A DNA stretch of 64,000 nt from Arthrobacter sp. FB24 (GTDB lineage Bacteria; Actinomycetota; Actinomycetes; Actinomycetales; Micrococcaceae), in the NCBI RefSeq assembly GCF_000196235.1, contig NC_008539.1, positions 1-64,000 of the forward strand, written 5' to 3'. How positions within the stretch are numbered: position 1 is the first letter of the stretch; each line of letters begins with the position of its first letter. The position numbers and the translations under genes were made by a program. This document shows, in pieces, positions 48,948 to 62,497 of the stretch. The notes below the pieces were generated by a model. The model worked only from the letters and a program-made list of their open reading frames with translations. It did no database searches and was not told where the DNA came from.

Positions 48948-50714
48948 TCAGGTTCGGGGAACCTGTTCGCCTTCAAGGGTGAGGTCGGGGTGCTCGACGG
49001 TGTTGAGGTAGCGGGTGGCGCCTTCGACGCTGAGCCCGAACAGGTCGCAGATGCGGCGGATGTCGCCGCCGGTGGCGTGGATCTCGTGGAGGATTCGGTC
49101 CTCGCGCAGCGCCTGGGGCCGCAGCGTCAATCCGGTCCAGGGGTACTGCCGGCTGACGGGCAGGAGCCGGGGCGCCGTACGCCGGTTGATGAGCAGGTGC
49201 GGGTTGGCACTGCCTGGCCAGGTTCGGTTGCGCTGGTCGAGCCAGGCTGCCAGGCGGGTGCGCACGGGCGCGGCCAGCGGAATGTCGCGGGTGCCGAGTA
49301 CCAGGTGTCCGTCGCTGATGTCGGTGAGGCGCAGCTCGCTGAGCTGTTTCTTGGTCAGTGCGTGGAAGGCGACCAAGGCAACCGCGAGGGCGACGACCGG
49401 CTTCGGGGAGTTCAGCTCCTCGCGGATCGCTGCGGCGTCCAGGGCGAGAGGGATAGTGCTGGCCTTCGGGGACGCCTTCATCCCGCGGGTCGGATTGGCG
49501 AAGATGAGCCGGCGGCCTTTGAGGGTCGTGAAGAGCGACTTGAGTCCGTTCCCGGCGATGTGGCGGCGGGCCGTCGTTTCGTCCAGCGCGGCTGTGATGT
49601 CGGTGCGGGTGACCTCGGCGAAGGATTGGAGGCCTGCTCCGGCCCAGGCGTGGATGATGGGTTCGATGCCCATGATGTGCGCCCTGATGGTCTGTGGGTC
49701 GCGCGGGATCTGCCGTGGCGCCTGGTGGGCGCCGTTGGTCAGGACCTGCAGCCACACCTCGAGCTGGTCCTTCATGACCGGTGGCAGGGTGCTGGTCTTG
49801 GCAGCGAAGTAGCGTTCGAGCCGGGTCGGCCGGTCCTCGATGAGCAGGCCGGCCGCGGCCAGCACGTCGATCGTGGAGAGGACGTTGCCGGAGTATTGGC
49901 GCAGCTGGAGGACGTCGGTGGCGCGGATCTTCGCGGTCGGGCTGAGCCGGAAACCCTGCAGCAGCCGCAGCGAGCGGGTTACGTCGTTGCGTTGCCGCTT
50001 GCTCCAGCCGGCCCTCTCGGCGTGTTCACGGACGATGGCGGCGCAGTAGCGGGTCAGGTCCCTTTCTTCGAGGCGGAGACGCGCTGCGACGACGGCGGGA
50101 TCGGGCGCCATATCGAACAACGTCATCTGCCCGCCGTGGTCGGCAGCAGATCCGGGGCCGGGCGGGTTGTTCTTGTCCCGCCGTTTCCATGGGGCGCGCT
50201 GGTCCGGGCTCAAGTGTGGTGCTCCGCGGCGGTGGAAGCTCATGTTGGCGAAGAAGAGCTGGTGGCCATCCCTATTCGCGCCGGCCAGGTCCAGGCCGTG
50301 TCCGGGCTCCTGGACCATTCGGGCCTGCTCCAGACACAGCCGGCAGGCCCGCCGCTCTCCGACACGGGCGGCGCGCCCGCAGAAGTCGCAGACTCCTTCC
50401 GGGTAGTGGGAACGCCACCATCGACACGGCCAGCACGTCCACTTGTAGCGGCGGTAGACACCCCACGCCAGACAGTCCTTGCACGAGCCTGGGTATTGTG
50501 GGCTGCCGGGATGGCAGCCGGCACACATGCCCTGGCTGAAGTAGCCCATGTCGGTTCCGCACTTGGAGCACGGCGGTGCAATGAACGGCCCGCCGGGAAG
50601 GCAGACATAGCAATAGTCCACCCGAGGGAAGGTCCAGGCGACACGGTTGATTTGGCAGCGGGGGCACATCGATGGCGGCCGCAGCGGCGCCGTCGGGCCC
50701 GGGGCAGGACTCAC
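48948..50714 (-). CDS. Zinc-ribbon tyrosine-recombinase-like protein (TnpB-like)
   Basis: 588 aa. Residues 17-127 hold eight CxxC pairs at regular spacing (C17/20, 35/38, 49/52, 64/67, 78/81, 94/97, 109/112, 124/127), probably four zinc ribbons. The C-terminal part is recombinase-like: ALTKKQLSELRLTDI at box I and FGLSVEGATRYLNTV at the end, with a Tyr kept. Box I Arg and the later His appear replaced, so catalysis is doubtful. Size and partners recall TnpB (630 aa) of Tn554. It is the last gene of a three-gene leftward unit. Confidence 0.65.
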   Translation of the reverse strand: MSPAPGPTAPLRPPSMCPRCQINRVAWTFPRVDYCYVCLPGGPFIAPPCSKCGTDMGYFSQGMCAGCHPGSPQYPGSCKDCLAWGVYRRYKWTCWPCRWWRSHYPEGVCDFCGRAARVGERRACRLCLEQARMVQEPGHGLDLAGANRDGHQLFFANMSFHRRGAPHLSPDQRAPWKRRDKNNPPGPGSAADHGGQMTLFDMAPDPAVVAARLRLEERDLTRYCAAIVREHAERAGWSKRQRNDVTRSLRLLQGFRLSPTAKIRATDVLQLRQYSGNVLSTIDVLAAAGLLIEDRPTRLERYFAAKTSTLPPVMKDQLEVWLQVLTNGAHQAPRQIPRDPQTIRAHIMGIEPIIHAWAGAGLQSFAEVTRTDITAALDETTARRHIAGNGLKSLFTTLKGRRLIFANPTRGMKASPKASTIPLALDAAAIREELNSPKPVVALAVALVAFHALTKKQLSELRLTDISDGHLVLGTRDIPLAAPVRTRLAAWLDQRNRTWPGSANPHLLINRRTAPRLLPVSRQYPWTGLTLRPQALREDRILHEIHATGGDIRRICDLFGLSVEGATRYLNTVEHPDLTLEGEQVPRT

Positions 50715-50725
50715 AACAGCCCTGC

Positions 50726-51076
50726 CTATAGGGGCGGTTCGGACCGCGGCTTGCCGAATCTCGGCGTGACGACCGGCGATGCCCCGCCATTGCCGGCGCC
50801 GTGGCCCTGGTCATCGCCGTTGACGGTCTCGGTGGCGCGTGGACGACGTGCCGCGACCTTGTCCGGCTCGGGGCTCATCAGGTCCGTCGGCGTGCACTTC
50901 AACACTGAGCAGAGCACGTCGAGCTCTTCGAGTCTCATCGTCGCCGGTGTCCCGGCCCACCACGAGGACATCTTCCCGGCGCTGATCTCCAGCCCGGCAT
51001 CGGCGAGCATCCGGCGCATCTGCGCTGACTTCCAGACCCCGCGTTCGGCGGCTCTGATCCGCAGATTCCACAGCAC
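50726..51076 (-). CDS. XRE-type small DNA-binding protein of the recombinase module
   Basis: 116 aa from GTG 51076 (AGAAGGAAGG upstream). LWNLRIRAAERGVWKSAQMRRMLADAGLEISAGKMSSWWAGTPATMRLEELDVLCSVLKCTPTDLM is a Cro/C1-type helix-turn-helix. The C-terminal 40 residues look disordered. It starts 4 nt after the recombinase stop, so it is co-translated. The size resembles TnpC (125 aa) of Tn554, which helps orient transposition; that analogy is inference. Confidence 0.75.
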   Translation of the reverse strand: MLWNLRIRAAERGVWKSAQMRRMLADAGLEISAGKMSSWWAGTPATMRLEELDVLCSVLKCTPTDLMSPEPDKVAARRPRATETVNGDDQGHGAGNGGASPVVTPRFGKPRSEPPL

Positions 51077-51080
51077 GGCA

Positions 51081-52172
51081 TCATCCTTCCTTCTGTGTGG
51101 TTGCGAAGCGGGATTCGACCCGCTCATTGGCGTTCTTCCAGGCCAGCTCGACGTGCTCGCTGCGCACGTGGATGTAACCCGAGGTAGTCGAGAGCCACTG
51201 ATGCCCCAGCAGCTCTTGAAGCGCTTTGATGTCCATTCCGGCCCCGTAGAGCGAGGAGGCGCAGTAATGCCGCAGAACGTGGGGCGTCATCCGTCCCGAC
51301 CAGGCCGGCAACCACTGCTCGACCTGCAAGCCCAGGCTGCGCCGCAGCGCGTTGCCACCGACCCGGCCGCATCGTCCCAGCTCGCGGTCGAACCGCTCCG
51401 AGGGGAGCAGGGGTGCGCCGGGGTCGCCCCAGTCCTCGCCGTACTGGTGTCGGACCTCGCCCAGCCACCAGTCGATCAGCTCGGCCGCGCCGTTGATCGC
51501 GGGTACCAGACGCGGCTTCGGGCCACGGCCCTGTGCTCCCTTGCCGAACCGGACGTGGAGCTTGCCGAACCCGCCCAGGTCCGGGCGCCAGTCCCGGATG
51601 TCGAGCATCACCGTCTCGTTGATCCGCAACCCCAGCCGACGCCACAGCGAGGCAGCGAAGTAGTCCCGCGCGGCGGGCAGATACTTGCGGGCCTGCGGGA
51701 TCGAGTGCCGCCAACAACTAAAGAACGCGTCGATCTCGGCATCGGACGGCGGCACTCTGACGTTGCCCAGCGACGCCCCGGACTGGCGGTTGAACTCATC
51801 GATGGGCTGCTCGACCAGTACCCCGGCCACCCGATGGATCCGGCCCTGGTAACGGCTGATCATGAACTCGTAAAACAGCGCCAGCGTCCCGGCCTTGCCG
51901 GCTCTGGTGCTCACACTGCGACCCAGCCTGCGCTGTTCGGCCAGGAAGCGGTCGGCGTCCTGGCAGGTCGCCGCCCACAGCGGGCCCGTCACCGACCGGG
52001 CGAATTCAATAATCGTCGCCCGGGTATTGCGGATATGCGGATCGCTCAAACCAGCCGCTGCCATCGCCAGCGCGTACTGGTCAACGATCTCCTGCTCGAA
52101 ATCCTCGGCCGCCTGCACACTCCAGAACGCCGGATCCATGGCGCCGCCACCGGGCAACGCCACCAGCACCAT
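51081..52172 (-). CDS. Tyrosine recombinase (TnpA-like)
   Basis: 363 aa (or 352 from ATG 52139). The full catalytic set can be seen: Arg183 in RRLGLRINET, a Lys near 211-219, His298 and Arg301 in PHVLRHYCASSLY, His324 in LLGHQWLSTT and Tyr333 in SGYIHV. An N-terminal SAM-like core-binding domain covers about 25-120. It leads a leftward unit with the XRE and zinc-ribbon proteins and is the likely active enzyme. Size matches TnpA (361 aa) of Tn554. Confidence 0.88.
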   Translation of the reverse strand: MVLVALPGGGAMDPAFWSVQAAEDFEQEIVDQYALAMAAAGLSDPHIRNTRATIIEFARSVTGPLWAATCQDADRFLAEQRRLGRSVSTRAGKAGTLALFYEFMISRYQGRIHRVAGVLVEQPIDEFNRQSGASLGNVRVPPSDAEIDAFFSCWRHSIPQARKYLPAARDYFAASLWRRLGLRINETVMLDIRDWRPDLGGFGKLHVRFGKGAQGRGPKPRLVPAINGAAELIDWWLGEVRHQYGEDWGDPGAPLLPSERFDRELGRCGRVGGNALRRSLGLQVEQWLPAWSGRMTPHVLRHYCASSLYGAGMDIKALQELLGHQWLSTTSGYIHVRSEHVELAWKNANERVESRFATTQKEG

Positions 52173-54718: not shown

Positions 54719-55531
54719 TTGCAACAGATATTTCCACGGGCCGCCATTGAAGACGCCTTGCAATGCAGCAATGTGGAGTATCGAGGCACCGGAAGCTTCG
54801 GAGAAGTCTGGCGAGCTCCCTACAACGAGGCGGACGCCGCATACAAGATAATTCATGGAGACGGCTACGACACTCAGCGGATCCTGCGCGAGATCCAAGG
54901 TTATCGTCGAGTAAACCATCCAAATGTGGTCAAGCTCTTTGACGTACAAACCATGAGTATTGCAGGTACACAAAGGCCAATCATGGTCTTCGAATTCATC
55001 CCTGGCTGCGACCTCGCCGAGGCAATCTCTGCAGGTCGCCCCACCGGTGACGAACTCCGCGGCCTGGCACACGGACTCTTGGACGGTGTTTCTGCGATGC
55101 ACGCCGCCGACCTCCTGCACCGCGACCTCAAACCGGCGAACATCGCCCTCAGAGACGGAAAGTTCGACTCTGCTGTGATCCTCGACTTGGGTCTGGCGAA
55201 ACTCCTCGACGTAGAGTCAGTCACCCGATACCCGTCGCTCGTCGGCACGACCTTGTATATGGCCCCGGAACAACTCCGCGGAGAGCGGGCGCTCAAGGCA
55301 AGTGATCTATGGGCCATTGGCGAAATCCTTTTCGAAGCTGCCACGGGAAACCACCCATATTTCAAGGCCGGCGAAAAGATCGGCATAGACGAGGCCTTTA
55401 GAAGATTCGAAGACTCTCCCGTCGTCCCTCAGGAAGTTCCCGATGACCTACGGGAACTGATAACGCGCTGCTTATCGGACGTTCCTCACCGGCGCGGAAC
55501 ACTTGCTAAAGCGAAAAGCCGACTTTCCTAG
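54719..55531 (+). CDS. Ser/Thr protein kinase of an accessory module
   Basis: 270 aa from TTG 54719, a kinase domain alone without membrane segment. Gly-rich loop GTGSFGEV (23-30), Lys43, Glu58, catalytic loop HRDLKPAN (134-141), DLG (156-158, Asp kept) and APEQ (182-185) are all intact, so it should be active. Base composition is visibly less GC-rich than the transfer genes. The next gene starts 8 nt after its stop, with the ribosome site in the stop region (TAGGAG), so the two form an operon. The substrate may be the next protein. Confidence 0.88.
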   Translation: MQQIFPRAAIEDALQCSNVEYRGTGSFGEVWRAPYNEADAAYKIIHGDGYDTQRILREIQGYRRVNHPNVVKLFDVQTMSIAGTQRPIMVFEFIPGCDLAEAISAGRPTGDELRGLAHGLLDGVSAMHAADLLHRDLKPANIALRDGKFDSAVILDLGLAKLLDVESVTRYPSLVGTTLYMAPEQLRGERALKASDLWAIGEILFEAATGNHPYFKAGEKIGIDEAFRRFEDSPVVPQEVPDDLRELITRCLSDVPHRRGTLAKAKSRLS

Positions 55532-55539
55532 GAGATAAA

Positions 55540-56913
55540 ATGTCACGCGATGATGATGAGAGCACGCTTGAGTTCATAGTCGACTCTCTTGAGGCCAACG
55601 CCCTGGACGAATCCGATGACTTTGAGTTTGATCCGGAAACGGCAGAAATATTGTCTGATCCCGAATCGGATCCTGGAATCACCATCGAAGACACCGAGGA
55701 GGCCCAAGACCCTGTGGCTCAAGCGCTAAAGCCTGGGGCGCCCCTTTTCTTGCTCCATAAGAGCGCCCACCACTCTGCGATCCTTCCTGCAGTGGCAGCC
55801 GATATAACAGTCAAGCATGGCGGAGCACTTCACGTTGGCGTCGCCGCGTCCGTGCCGAGAACTACTCCGCAGGCCCTGAAACGATTCTTCGAGTCAATGC
55901 CTTCCACGACCCTTCGTTTCGCGGATCCGGAAGCTTTCGCACGACACGATTCCTTGGGACCGTATATTGCCGCTCAACGGGAGGACAAGCCGTTGGTGGG
56001 CAGGACTGGCGCTCATTGGAAATACTTTGGGGACCCACAGGTTGGAGGAAGGAATGCGACCTGGGTTAAGGATGTATTGGACGCCCAACGATCCATGGGC
56101 GCGTCTGTCCTGCTGACCCCCGGAGTCTGGGCCGATCCCACAAGCGCTCAAACTGCACTTACGGAGGCTCGGCAGCACGCTTCATGGGCGCGCACTGCGC
56201 TGACTCCAGGGGAACACCTTGCGGTAAACATTACGCTGTCATGCCAGTGGCTCACCAATATCCACCTGAGAGACAAGCTCCTCAACGAGATCCTCGACAT
56301 GGATGAAGACGTTTTTTACATCCGCGTCAGGTGGCCCTTGATGCCCCAGACTTACGGACAGCTCCTAGACCAGGCCATTCTTGATGGTTATGTCGAGCTT
56401 GCCAATGTGTTTGAAGACAACGACAAAGTGTTGATCCTCCCTAACACGGGCCTCACCGGGTGGGCAGCACTTGCTTGGGGAGCCCACGGCTACTCCACTG
56501 GTATCGGCTCCGGCGAGCGAGCCTTTGCTGACACCCGCGTCATCCGGATGAAAAGGACGAACCCCCGACCTGCCCCCACGAACCGCACGTTCGTTACAGA
56601 TATCCTCCATGTCACTGACGTGACCACTGCAACCCAGTTGGATCAATTGGCTGGCGGAGCTTGCCGATGCCGATTCTGCGCAAGTCAGCGGAAACTCACT
56701 CAGTGGAACAAGGCACTTGCGGGAGCACACTATCTGCGGCAGGTGGCCGATATTACGGCCACTATCTCAACAAGCGCTCGAGGCCGCCGGGCGGGCGCCC
56801 GTCGTATCGTTCGGGCCGCAGCCACCCAGGCTGCGACAGCCACGCGGAGAGTGCCCCTAGCCGCGACTAACGAACCAAAGCATTTGCCTCTATGGAGCGC
56901 CCGTCTGCGCTAG
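55540..56913 (+). CDS. TGT-like protein with C-terminal CxCxxC...H zinc signature
   Basis: 457 aa. Residues 1-55 are strongly acidic (Asp/Glu), then an alternating strand-helix region from 65 to 360 resembles a TIM barrel (ALHVGVAAS, STTLRFADPEAF, GASVLLTPGVW, LAVNITLSC, DVFYIRVRWP, KVLILPNTGLTGWAALAWGAHGYSTGIGSGERAF). Cys375-x-Cys377-x2-Cys380-x16-His397 follows, like the CxCxxC-x25-H zinc site of tRNA-guanine transglycosylases and the related DpdA enzymes that modify DNA. The C-terminus is basic. I cannot fix the active-site Asp by eye; the fold call is inference. Confidence 0.5.
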   Translation: MSRDDDESTLEFIVDSLEANALDESDDFEFDPETAEILSDPESDPGITIEDTEEAQDPVAQALKPGAPLFLLHKSAHHSAILPAVAADITVKHGGALHVGVAASVPRTTPQALKRFFESMPSTTLRFADPEAFARHDSLGPYIAAQREDKPLVGRTGAHWKYFGDPQVGGRNATWVKDVLDAQRSMGASVLLTPGVWADPTSAQTALTEARQHASWARTALTPGEHLAVNITLSCQWLTNIHLRDKLLNEILDMDEDVFYIRVRWPLMPQTYGQLLDQAILDGYVELANVFEDNDKVLILPNTGLTGWAALAWGAHGYSTGIGSGERAFADTRVIRMKRTNPRPAPTNRTFVTDILHVTDVTTATQLDQLAGGACRCRFCASQRKLTQWNKALAGAHYLRQVADITATISTSARGRRAGARRIVRAAATQAATATRRVPLAATNEPKHLPLWSARLR

Positions 56914-57743
56914 CCCTCAGGGCACTGACGAAAACGAGGATCTAACCCCGAGGTGGTCGTCAGGAACTGCCCGAAAACAAGGCCCACTTCACCTGATCTG
57001 CTTTCGTTCTTGATGAGGTCAGCGATGCGCTCGGCGACAACGGCATGCGGTAGACCCCGGCGACGTCGCCTGCGGGCATTTATCCTCCGTTGGACGCCTT
57101 TGGCCCCTTCGTCCGAGCGCACCGTCAGCAGACCCACGCCGCTGAAGTTGAAGGCTGGACTCATCGCAGCGGTGTCCCTCACTCGCGCACAATCCATTGC
57201 TACATAGGCCGCATCTGAAAAGTCAGTGTAGGAATTAGCTTGGGACAACGCGCGCCGCCAATCTGTCCTTTTAATTTCAACAGCGGTCATCGACCTCACC
57301 GGAGGAATAAAACTGGCACTAAGCGCCCAGCCGCCTCCTCTAGACAGGATCCATCCCCTCTCCACCAGCCGAGGTAGAATTTTGGACCTTAAGTGCCCGG
57401 GGCTGATTCCCGTCCGTGCTGCGAGCGACGCGGTCTGCAAAAACTGAGGGGCTTCCTGGTCTTTACCTGACTGGAAAGCCATCAGCGTGGCAACCTCTGA
57501 TATCTCAGTGACGGCGCTCAGCCCTAACCGAGTTCTCGCGGACATGACCTCCTGGTCCACGTCCGCAAACACTACGTCAGCGATTCCGTGTAGGGTCTGC
57601 ACTTCAAAAAACGGCTCCCCCCGGAGGGCGAGTACACCATCGGCGATCCCAGTGAGCAGGGGAAGCAGCATGTCCGCTTCGCGCGCAAAGGGGGCTGGAA
57701 ACTGCGCTGGAGATCTCAATGGGGGCGCCAAAAGGGAAGTCAT
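56910..57743 (-). CDS. PD-(D/E)XK-like nuclease with inserted winged helix (sce7726-like)
   Basis: 277 aa, convergent with the TGT-like gene, overlapping by 4 nt at the 3' ends. FFEVQTLHGIADVVFADVD (Glu47, Asp56) and AVEIKRTDWRRALSQANSY (Glu156, Lys158, Gln168) match the acidic, E-x-K and Q positions of PD-(D/E)XK nucleases. In between, residues 85-145 read as a winged helix (TASLAARTGISPGHLRSKILPRLVERGWI). The C-terminus is Arg-rich (RRINARRRRRRGLP). A target in nucleic acid is likely. The sce7726 family resemblance is from memory. Confidence 0.55.
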   Translation of the reverse strand: MTSLLAPPLRSPAQFPAPFAREADMLLPLLTGIADGVLALRGEPFFEVQTLHGIADVVFADVDQEVMSARTRLGLSAVTEISEVATLMAFQSGKDQEAPQFLQTASLAARTGISPGHLRSKILPRLVERGWILSRGGGWALSASFIPPVRSMTAVEIKRTDWRRALSQANSYTDFSDAAYVAMDCARVRDTAAMSPAFNFSGVGLLTVRSDEGAKGVQRRINARRRRRRGLPHAVVAERIADLIKNESRSGEVGLVFGQFLTTTSGLDPRFRQCPEG

Positions 57744-57792: not shown

Positions 57793-59025
57793 TCATCGGC
57801 TGCGACCGCTCTGGGACCGCTTCGCGCTAGCCGAGAGGCTGGTGCGGGTCTTTTTGGCCTTGGCTGCGCCCTTGCCCATGGTGACGGCCGCGCGGGGGTG
57901 TGTGCCCTCGCTGCGTTCTGCGGCGGCGCGTCCCCGGACTTGCACTTCGTTGGCGCCGGTAGTGGCCAGGGACGCGGCGAATGCTTCCTGACGCTCCGCT
58001 GATCCATAGTCCGCGGCAGAAGTGCTTTCAGCCTTCAACCCTTGGTCTTTTAGCCGGCTGTTGTCGTTGCCGGTGACGCGGTTTTCGATTTCGCGGCCGA
58101 CGCTTTCCATGCGGGCAAAGAGTTCCTTTTCGGCTCGTTCGTACCGCTGCTCCACGGGCGTCCGCTCCGTGCCTGTGAAACCGCCCTCTGCCAGGAGTTT
58201 GGCCTCGTGCATGTCCTTGGCTGCTTGGACGAATGCGGGATCCTCGAAGTGTGAATCCTTGGCACCGTTGACGTTCGCAGTGGTCTCCGCACGGAGCTGG
58301 TCGATGTCGGGGCCGTTGATGCCGTCCTTGCCGATGAGGAACATGCGTTCCTGCACGGTGGCGTCGGCGGCTGCCACTGCTGCGGGGGTCTTCGCGGCGT
58401 GTGCCGTCTGCAATGCCCGGGCGAGCTCGGGGTTGGCAAGGTACTCCATGGGCACTTGGTGGCGTTCCATTTCCGGGGCCAGTGTCGCGGCCCGGGCGCG
58501 GAGTTCTTCGACACGGGCAGCAGCGAGCAGGCCCATGGCCTTCTCATGTTCGACGGCCGCCGTGCGTGTTTCTTCCTGGCTGCGTTCCAGTGCGCTCTGC
58601 CGGGCTTTTTCCGTAGCGGCGGTCCGGATCCCTGACTCCAGGTAGGCGTCGCCCGCGCCGATGTCGCGGGTGTCGATGCCGTAGCGCGTGAAGACTTCCT
58701 GACGGATCTTTTCCGAGGCCGCCAGGGCGGTCGGGTCGTGGTCCTTCCAGCCTTCAGCGACGGCATGTGCCGTGGCAATGTCGTGGGGCTGGGCTTTGTC
58801 CCACCACTGGTCCCTATTGACCGGTGCCAGCGCGGCGTGCGCCGCGCTGCGGTCTGCCGTGAGGCGTGCCTGTGCTTCGTGCGCTGCCTGGGCATCCTGA
58901 TGTTCCTGCTGCCGCTGGGACTCCTGCCGGCGACGGGCCAGCGTCTCGGCAATGCGGGACGCGATGATCAGGGACTGCCGCATTCCGCCGTCCAGAACTT
59001 CATCTATTCCGTCTGATTCACTCAT
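57793..59025 (-). CDS. Coiled-coil mobilisation accessory protein
   Basis: 410 aa, Ala/Glu/Arg/Gln-rich and almost wholly helical, with a long coiled coil at 20-70 (ETLARRRQESQRQQEHQDAQ) and further at 130-200. The C-terminal 60 residues are basic and disordered (KGAAKAKKTRTSLSASAKR), suited to DNA contact. It follows the relaxase gene by 30 bp on the same strand, so it is probably part of the relaxosome. No family recognised. Confidence 0.65.
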   Translation of the reverse strand: MSESDGIDEVLDGGMRQSLIIASRIAETLARRRQESQRQQEHQDAQAAHEAQARLTADRSAAHAALAPVNRDQWWDKAQPHDIATAHAVAEGWKDHDPTALAASEKIRQEVFTRYGIDTRDIGAGDAYLESGIRTAATEKARQSALERSQEETRTAAVEHEKAMGLLAAARVEELRARAATLAPEMERHQVPMEYLANPELARALQTAHAAKTPAAVAAADATVQERMFLIGKDGINGPDIDQLRAETTANVNGAKDSHFEDPAFVQAAKDMHEAKLLAEGGFTGTERTPVEQRYERAEKELFARMESVGREIENRVTGNDNSRLKDQGLKAESTSAADYGSAERQEAFAASLATTGANEVQVRGRAAAERSEGTHPRAAVTMGKGAAKAKKTRTSLSASAKRSQSGRSR

Positions 59026-61633: not shown

Positions 61634-62497
61634 GTGGACGACGCCAGAACCTCAGCAGGCAACAGCTCTCCCGATTCGAAAAGCCACCTTCTCCTGCCTT
61701 CGGCCGCGGATGAGTACGAATGGGCTGAGCGCATCATGAACCTGCTGGATCGACACACGCACCTTAGCGATGACATCAACCTGAGGATGGAAGTCCGACC
61801 TGGATCTGCACTAGTGGGAGATGACAAGATCTCTCCGGCACTTCCGCTGTCTTATTACCTTCGCTATCTACTTATCGCAGCGGCGGATAATTTCAGCGCC
61901 ATCCGCAGCATGTTGATCAAAAGCGAGGTTGGGTCACACACCAACCTCGCCCTTCACCCATTCGCCCCCTACACGCTGGTCCGCAACGTGATCGAATGCG
62001 CCGGTACGGGGTACTGGGTTCTCACGCCTTCGAGTAGGCCTAAAAGGATCCATCGTCACGCCATGCTGGAACTGGACGATGCGAAGAAGAGCCTCAGCGC
62101 TCTGACTCAGTACGGCGGTTCAGGGGAAAAAACTTACACGCGTCGGGTTGAACTCATCAAAGCCATGGTCGCTCGCTACCCTGACGGCATCACCTGGAAG
62201 AACGTTACGGACGGGTTTTCCGTGACTGGCGCCCTTCGCGAAGTCGGAACGGCCTCCGCATTTGAGGCCATCAACCCGCTCGGGGCTTGGCAATTGGCAA
62301 GCGGAATGGCACACGGCAAACGTTGGGCTGGCTTGATCCTGAGCGACAAGGAACCGTTAAATGCCGGACTAAACGACGATACCTACATGGTCACCGGTAG
62401 CTACAAACACCTTTGGTGGCTAATGAACACGGCGAGCATAGTGCTGACCGAAGCACACAGGCTCTTCGTTGAGCGCGGAACCGCGCATCACCACTAG
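61634..62497 (+). CDS. Hypothetical 287-aa protein
   Basis: Starts at GTG 61634, 6 nt after the previous stop, so the two are co-transcribed. The protein is mostly helical with conserved-looking His/Arg/Asp positions (ALHPFAPYTLVRNVIECAG, RHAMLELDDAKKSL, QLASGMAHGKRWAG). This layout recalls HEPN-like or DUF5677-type helical proteins but lacks a clear RxxxxH motif. Codon use is less GC-rich than the relaxase genes, suggesting separate acquisition. Function unknown. Confidence 0.6.
   Translation: MDDARTSAGNSSPDSKSHLLLPSAADEYEWAERIMNLLDRHTHLSDDINLRMEVRPGSALVGDDKISPALPLSYYLRYLLIAAADNFSAIRSMLIKSEVGSHTNLALHPFAPYTLVRNVIECAGTGYWVLTPSSRPKRIHRHAMLELDDAKKSLSALTQYGGSGEKTYTRRVELIKAMVARYPDGITWKNVTDGFSVTGALREVGTASAFEAINPLGAWQLASGMAHGKRWAGLILSDKEPLNAGLNDDTYMVTGSYKHLWWLMNTASIVLTEAHRLFVERGTAHHH

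Follow-up and report, generated by a model that had tools for sequence, protein, structure and literature searches.

Three adjacent genes of Arthrobacter sp. FB24, encoding a Hanks-type Ser/Thr kinase, a protein resembling tRNA-guanine transglycosylases (TGTs) and a PD-(D/E)XK nuclease, form a set that recurs far beyond this strain and that appears to be a defence system, not described before, against DNA that invades the carrier. Judging from the genomic context, the three genes would be mobile and would together protect the cell, plasmid or prophage that carries them against such DNA; the probability of this reading is put at just under 60%. All positions given here refer to the window, that is, the whole stretch of 64,000 nucleotides that was analysed.

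The kinase gene (54719..55531, plus strand; 270 aa) has a TTG start, and the gene for the TGT-like TIM-barrel protein (55540..56913, plus strand; 457 aa) begins 8 nt past its stop. The nuclease gene, which includes an inserted winged helix (56910..57743, minus strand; 277 aa), is convergent, and at its stop it shares 4 nt with the end of the 457-aa gene. These open reading frames are the tandem pair and convergent third gene of the original prediction, which had also described them, correctly, as less GC-rich than their flanks: the GC content is 0.56-0.60 in the trio, and the transfer and mobilisation genes on either side have about 0.63-0.69. In effect, the trio is the occupant of a variable slot in a conjugative plasmid type. 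This cargo slot of the plasmid backbone (54625..57792, no strand assigned) coincides with the drop in GC, lies between a DUF4913 gene and a gene beside the relaxase (57793-59025), and holds other genes in four loci (L023, L024, L025 and L084).

The original prediction called for a search of other genomes for the trio, and this search found the three genes together elsewhere. All 17 complete loci found via the TGT-like protein also carry the kinase and the nuclease; with four loci found via the nuclease and the window itself, the total is 22, not all of them independent, since L080 and L082 are near-identical. A gene was counted as present only if it was detected by a search whose query did not derive from that locus; some profiles contained loci that they were then run on. 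As the three families stand together in 21 other loci, their grouping in the window is not due to chance. Two gene orders are observed: 14 loci are convergent and 8 are co-directional (nuclease-kinase-TGT-like). Furthermore, the three proteins have correlated distances across 21 loci (r 0.93, 0.87 and 0.88; 0 of 10000 permutations).

The trio is spread sparsely, occurring in 3 of 396 phylum genomes and 3 of 396 order genomes, with the window's own genome counted each time. Its loci include bacteria and four viral contigs, its carriers include the window contig, pKRAD01 and a haloarchaeal plasmid, and several copies lie on contigs longer than 1 Mb. In the plasmid search with the window TGT-like protein, pKRAD01 was the only match; the phage collection gave none, and the profile of this protein matched nothing in viral contigs. 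A profile of the L070 type matched the four viral contigs, with the trio present in 4 of 4. Plasmids gave no match to the L070 nuclease, and the phage collection none to P0101. The nuclease search matched 14 of 396 genomes, nine at E<1e-5; seven of these nine are trios, three of them (G000, G025 and G347) counted already. The match in G305 (L068) sits at a contig end, and G239 (L072) has a related nuclease with no kinase detected. No kinase was seen in L073 and L074, the two examined of five weaker nuclease matches, and in L075, which comes from viral contigs, the nuclease stands by itself. L017 is truncated by the contig start, leaving the TGT end and the nuclease visible, while L086 has the sequence of L018 and was left out of the count. 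The L056 nuclease was missed by BLAST with the window protein and found by the A2 profile (E 2.1e-19).

The surroundings of the trio were scanned for chosen neighbours of 11 of the 21 non-window loci, and defence-type genes adjoin it in some of them. For instance, the L070 trio is flanked by pglX and brxHI within a BREX operon, all on one strand, and is the only one with BREX genes around it among the neighbours scanned; the L055 trio adjoins type III restriction-modification genes; and the L013 trio adjoins a gene with an ApeA N-terminal domain and is also near an ABC transporter protein. Many other scanned neighbours are not defence genes, such as pyruvate:ferredoxin oxidoreductase (L067), a PAS histidine kinase (L069) and an AMP-binding enzyme (L071). 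The trios of L080 and L082 are near an ORF of 1361 and 1359 aa, respectively, that appears tape-measure-like by eye, and large ORFs near the L012 and L014 trios gave no match.

The presence of the trio on plasmids and viral contigs would also fit a toxin-antitoxin or plasmid maintenance module, in which a nuclease toxin is held by the TGT-like protein and freed by the kinase under stress. Toxin-antitoxin pairs are usually co-transcribed, unlike the nuclease and TGT-like genes of the 14 convergent loci, and the copies on contigs above 1 Mb also speak against plasmid maintenance. In favour of such a module, VapKSC is a three-gene unit of kinase, substrate and nuclease, described as anti-phage in the available part of the source (PMC13373217); against it, VapK is a GHKL kinase, as opposed to the Hanks-type kinase of the trio. 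A toxin-antitoxin role is rather unlikely; it overlaps with abortive defence and does not exclude it.

The kinase appears active, as had been proposed. A Pkinase domain is found in the 270-aa protein (142.6 bits, E 1.9e-41; one of 10 matches in the genome), with K43, E58, H134-R135-D136, N141 and D156-x-G158 present in 21 of 21 loci and K138 in 20 of 21. The best PADLOC matches of this domain are MAD6 (E 1.1e-49) and PD-T4-6 (E 7.4e-44), and the PADLOC model of PglW covers kinase residues 48-219 only.

The 457-aa protein had been predicted to have a barrel-like, TGT-like fold with a TGT-type zinc site, and both features are found. Its AlphaFold2 model (pLDDT 84.2, pTM 0.82; residues 1-52 poor) has a TGT barrel with a C-terminal zinc subdomain, and when Foldseek's 1000 best chains were re-ranked with VIA-align, TGTs were all of the best 50 matches listed, with identities of 10-13% in the fold alignments listed. 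Foldseek alone gave no TGT among the best 50 matches listed, placing general TIM barrels on top (KDO8P synthase, tryptophan synthase alpha and triosephosphate isomerase; best E 4.8e-4) where VIA-align favours TGTs, and no match at E<=0.001 to viral models. The zinc site, C375-x-C377-x2-C380-x16-H397 (56662..56730, plus strand), is conserved, with each Cys present in 54 of 56 sequences and the His in 55. The zinc cysteines are lost in L015 and L016, and the CxCxxC motif is not seen in the L070-type alignment.

At the level of sequence profiles, the relationship to TGTs is not detected. At E<=1, the 457-aa protein has no matching family in Pfam, NCBIfam, PADLOC or PHROGs, and TGT was not among the matches of nine relatives at E<=10 or of two relatives at E<=0.01. 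A profile comparison with 30 canonical TGTs produced no full-length match and a weak local one (E 0.11, probability 0.5%, residues 177-259). Within the family itself, two subfamilies are collinear when compared, without significance (E 0.47). They are linked through intermediates, since L076 (E 9.7e-13 and 8.7e-39) and L071 (E 6.1e-7 and 2.5e-14) match both subfamily profiles in searches of the ORFs of one locus. At E<=0.001, as many as 1395 relatives belong to just one subfamily. In L067, the middle protein matches neither profile and was assigned from position and size only.

Many of the conserved residues of the TGT-like protein follow its barrel strands. After strand 3 lies D129-P-E-A-F133 (55924..55938, plus strand), the counterpart of the TGT motif D-S-G-G-F/Y; D129 corresponds to the general-acid Asp of TGTs and F133 to their stacking aromatic. 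D129 is present in 55 of 56 sequences, its equivalent being missing in L055, and position 133 is F, Y, H or W in 55 of 56; canonical TGTs have both D and aromatic in 30 of 30, these ORFs having been chosen by that same motif. By contrast, the site of the nucleophilic Asp at the end of strand 8 is occupied by S319-T320 (56494..56499, plus strand), with S in 51, G in 4 and T in 1 of 56 sequences at position 319. At this hand-set position, Asp occurs in 0 of 56 window-family members and 0 of 28 from the second subfamily, versus 30 of 30 canonical TGTs. The position comes from aligning strands 7-8 by hand, without gaps, to the TGT encoded in the same genome, not from a superposition, because the full-length profile comparison with canonical TGTs failed. 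Going by this alignment, the key catalytic residue seems to be lost, and the protein is probably a sensor or an altered enzyme and not a Dpd-like base inserter. Of the two roles originally proposed, modification or sensing, DpdA-like modification is therefore not supported (nucleophile Asp in 0 of 84), and sensing or a changed chemistry fits better.

Such a changed chemistry could be that of base-excision restriction, in which the altered barrel, as a glycosylase, would remove nucleobases from DNA or RNA and the resulting abasic sites would be cut by the nuclease or by the cell. The retained general acid and stacking aromatic, together with the conservation after the barrel strands, are consistent with this, and restriction glycosylases are described in the available part of PMC10273834. 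Where a second acid would be expected, none that is conserved was identified, and the general acid itself is missing in L055, which makes a glycosylase unlikely. A Dpd-like modification-restriction system, in which the TGT-like protein marks host DNA, the nuclease cuts unmarked DNA and the kinase regulates, would account for the TGT fold and the zinc site, and TGT homologues insert bases in Dpd and are proposed to do so in BRC (PMC12839542, in the part available). The loss of Asp at the hand-set position makes it improbable, as does the PADLOC search, in which neither the TGT-like protein nor the nuclease had a family at E<=1. One match to DpdF (L015) appeared among the partly scanned neighbours, and it is a DNA topoisomerase according to Pfam.

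The convergent gene, predicted to be PD-(D/E)XK-like, does encode a protein with both the core fold, in its predicted model, and the D...ExK residues. Glu47, Asp56, Glu156-x-Lys158 and Gln168 are kept in 32 of 32 aligned nuclease sequences, and D56, E156, K158 and Q168 are present in all 21 loci. PD-(D/E)XK chains lead the VIA-align list for the model, where Foldseek alone listed mostly proteins with winged helices (none with E below 9.8e-3). A winged helix is indeed inserted at about residues 77-148 (57300..57515, minus strand), as shown by VIA-align matches over about 76-148 to MarR/RuvB-type winged helices, and it is absent from the L069 nuclease (ORF of 147 aa), which retains the nuclease residues. 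Across Pfam, NCBIfam, PADLOC and PHROGs, no match to the nuclease exceeds a curated cut-off or has an E below 0.008. In some databases, this third protein is named 'BadM/Rrf2 family transcriptional regulator'. That name and sub-threshold Rrf2 matches (E 0.021 and E 0.057) could suggest transcriptional or metabolic regulation, with an Rrf2/BadM-type regulator and signalling and metabolic partners, but the winged helix being only an insertion that L069 lacks, the presence of E156, K158 and Q168 in 21 of 21 loci and the L070 trio inside a BREX operon make this highly improbable.

Returning to defence, the TGT-like protein would be the recognition module of the system. With the pocket, the Asp and the aromatic kept and the nucleophile apparently lost, its most likely function is to bind a modified or foreign nucleobase or nucleic acid instead of swapping bases. 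Ligand binding would then switch the kinase, and phosphorylation would license or release the nuclease to cut DNA, of the invader or of the cell itself, aided by the winged helix where present. A more specific version, offered tentatively, is a modification-dependent immunity with a phosphorylation switch, in which the pocket reads modified phage bases or altered tRNA and signals through the kinase to the restriction-type nuclease. The 7-deazaguanines installed by phage DpdA are an example of a possible ligand. The reader would be a retired base-swapping enzyme, in a large unannotated superfamily across bacteria and archaea.

No model in Pfam, NCBIfam, PADLOC or PHROGs covers the set, and no description of it was recognised in the literature searched, subscription papers being mostly outside its reach. 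Parts of the trio resemble several known systems. The window protein shares with TGT (PF01702) and with DpdA, a DNA-acting relative of tRNA-guanine transglycosylase, the TIM barrel, the C-terminal CxCxxC...H zinc site and D-x3-F/Y after strand 3, and differs from them in its low identity, its lack of a Pfam match and the apparently absent nucleophile. The kinase resembles PD-T4-6 and MAD6 of MADS, although the match is limited to the kinase domain and its 108 bits are far from the NCBIfam MAD6 cut-off of 460 bits. According to the available parts of PMC12839542 and PMC10853773, PglW of type 2 BREX and DndF variants, which combine a NERD nuclease and kinases, have the nuclease-kinase-sensor order of the co-directional trios; these are single long proteins in larger systems, whereas the trio consists of three separate genes, the third TGT-like, and lacks the single nuclease-kinase protein with BREX core genes that defines BREX type 2. 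BRC (TGT, GNAT, HerA/FtsK, PglZ and DUF6079) also has a TGT homologue in a proposed defence locus, but base marking is proposed for it and the trio has no other BRC component, as far as the available part of PMC12839542 describes them. VapKSC and CapKS have a kinase that acts via a phosphorylated partner to control a nuclease or immune operon; the GHKL kinase, STAS partner and VapC-like nuclease set them apart from the trio by their description in the available part of PMC13373217. If the trio is indeed a defence system, the TGT fold would have a role in the conflict between hosts and viruses that adds to those in Dpd and BRC, a restriction-type nuclease would be under a phosphorylation switch, and the TGT-like protein would be a concrete candidate sensor for modified bases.

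The kinase gene, the 457-aa gene and the convergent 277-aa nuclease gene of the original prediction are present by ORF reading at 54719-57743 of the window, with a GC content below that of their flanks, and the predicted co-occurrence of the three elsewhere is confirmed. A search outward from the 457-aa TGT-like protein reached 17 complete loci besides the window's (L009-L016, L018, L055, L056, L076, L080-L083 and L087), and all 17 hold both partners. Four further trios (L067, L069, L070 and L071) were reached from the nuclease profile, the middle gene of L067 being counted as TGT-like by position and size only. In 14 of these 22 loci, window included, the kinase and TGT-like genes converge on the nuclease gene, while the remaining eight carry nuclease, kinase and TGT-like gene in that order on one strand. 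The occurrence of the same three partners in two gene orders argues for a functional link among them. Pairwise distances of the three proteins also correlate at 0.87-0.93 over 21 loci, a level reached by none of 10000 permutations, although shared host phylogeny may raise this value and L080 and L082 are near-identical. As for the kinase, which had been described as active-looking, Lys43, Glu58, His-Arg-Asp, Asn141 and Asp156-x-Gly158 are kept in 21 of 21 loci and Lys138 in 20; the predicted enzyme should be active.

The residues of the TGT-like protein point in another direction. TGTs use a general-acid Asp, a stacking aromatic residue and a nucleophilic Asp. For comparison, 30 canonical TGTs were translated, namely that of the window's own genome (L022) and those of 29 other loci returned, from 37 matches; their ORFs were chosen by the motif D-S/T-G-G-F/Y-Q, found in 30 of 30 loci. 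The general acid and the aromatic position are therefore present in 30/30 partly by choice, but the nucleophilic Asp, also 30/30, was not used in choosing. Among 56 window-family sequences, 55 keep the general acid D129 and 55 have F, Y, H or W at the aromatic position. Both positions are kept in 28/28 sequences of the second subfamily, the L070 type (27 of the 1395 matches plus the query itself). Since profile alignment with canonical TGTs failed, the nucleophile position was fixed by ungapped hand alignment of the strand 7-8 segment against L022. So placed, it is S in 51, G in four and T in one of the 56 window-family sequences, and A in 23, S in three, T in one and C in one of the 28 L070-type sequences; Asp occurs in none of either, versus 30/30 canonical TGTs. 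This speaks against the DpdA-type base insertion originally offered as one option. The predicted barrel pocket is nevertheless kept, as many nearly invariant residues of the window family sit after barrel strands, and its chemistry probably differs from canonical transglycosylation.

The two types differ in spread, that of the window being sparse and that of L070 broad. The window type was found in 3 of 396 phylum genomes and 3 of 396 order genomes, the window's own included in each; one of the three order matches is the sequence of L018. The L070 type comprises 1395 proteins at E<=0.001, a protein count, gene context being known for trio loci only. Source names among 120 listed include Deltaproteobacteria, Desulfuromusa, Zixibacteria, Firmicutes, Anaerolineales, Candidatus Jettenia and Thermoplasmatales, and none of these 120 has a Pfam domain; in Actinomycetota, 3 of 396 genomes matched. 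A haloarchaeal plasmid also carries the trio. L072 (6257-9316) has three genes in a row, coding for a short nuclease relative, for a 465-aa product that contains CxCxxC, and for a SIR2-like protein (PADLOC, E 1.2e-4); a kinase was not found, and the group may be a variant that uses a different effector. A viral contig (L075:1446-2174) has a nuclease relative without the other two genes.

On the window's plasmid, the trio occupies a cargo slot bounded on one side by the last of the transfer genes and on the other by a 410-aa gene adjoining the relaxase, as the same place carries other genes in all four related plasmids opened. The slot holds genes for a class III aminotransferase, an unknown 347-aa protein, a folE2-type GTP cyclohydrolase and a TauD dioxygenase in pZXY23 (L023:8191-12878), a single 148-aa gene in the P. 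ureafaciens plasmid, two unknown genes in Arthrobacter U41, and a hypothetical gene with a putative lipase in Pseudarthrobacter Fe7. The pZXY23 genes look like a small metabolic cluster, unexplained as plasmid cargo, and the 148-aa product (L024:4636-5082) matches a section of the PADLOC candidate PDC-M09A (E 2.1e-10). The source genome measures 5.07 Mb in four contigs, the window lying on contig C3. In a plasmid collection, the closest plasmids to its transfer region come from Arthrobacter, Paenarthrobacter and Pseudarthrobacter, and 46 of 62 matching records are typed as conjugative. Genes of 588, 133 and 363 aa are inserted among the transfer genes (48948-52172, minus strand). By eye, the 363-aa product looks like a tyrosine recombinase and the 133-aa product like a small HTH protein; a Pfam search with the 588-aa protein gave no match at E<=0.1. 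In pZXY23, a comparable group at a similar place is annotated as hypothetical, Cro/CI regulator and integrase. A second GC-poor stretch, adjoining the mobilisation genes, holds a 287-aa gene (61634-62494, plus strand) for which four libraries gave no family at E<=1.

Chosen, mostly large, neighbouring genes were scanned at 11 of the 21 non-window loci, and the following pattern is descriptive, not a statistic of enrichment. At L070, the trio lies within a BREX operon, with BrxC (cut), a DUF4062/HATPase gene, PglX, nuclease, kinase, TGT-like gene, BrxHI and PglZ in order on one strand; among the neighbours scanned, BREX genes occur only there. Type III mod and res genes adjoin the kinase at L055, a gene with an ApeA N-terminal domain lies upstream of the trio at L013, and at L081 the trio is preceded, at a distance of about 1 kb, by a C5 DNA methylase. 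A restriction-like helicase protein is found near L069 (a further gene there resembles an integrase by eye), an integrase near L071, a serine recombinase near L015, and a long ORF, by eye similar to a tape-measure protein, near L080 and L082. Several other scanned neighbours are transport, metabolic or signalling genes, and those at L012 and L014 gave no match. Directly after the L083 trio lies a PP2C-type protein phosphatase gene (L083:4990-5733, minus strand, E 3.8e-9), which would suit a phosphorylation switch.

We infer a defence function in which, most probably, the TGT-like protein would carry out recognition, the kinase would relay the signal and the nuclease would cleave. For the TGT-like protein, sensing is preferred over base insertion because the nucleophile appears lost. 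The parts belong to known superfamilies. No known system of this composition was found in the literature searched, though a description may exist beyond it, and no model in the libraries used covers the TGT-like protein or the nuclease, two of the three proteins; hence, the composition of the system appears new. Its elements do have counterparts. GrwAB, a restriction system, is reported to recognise 7-deazaguanine DNA, which makes a base-reading role for the TGT-like protein plausible by analogy. VapKSC is reported to have a kinase that controls a nuclease (PMC13373217), like the kinase-to-nuclease step proposed here. Finally, according to PMC12839542 and PMC10853773, PglW and some DndF proteins combine nuclease, kinase and sensor, in that order, within single proteins, whereas the trio distributes them over three separate genes.
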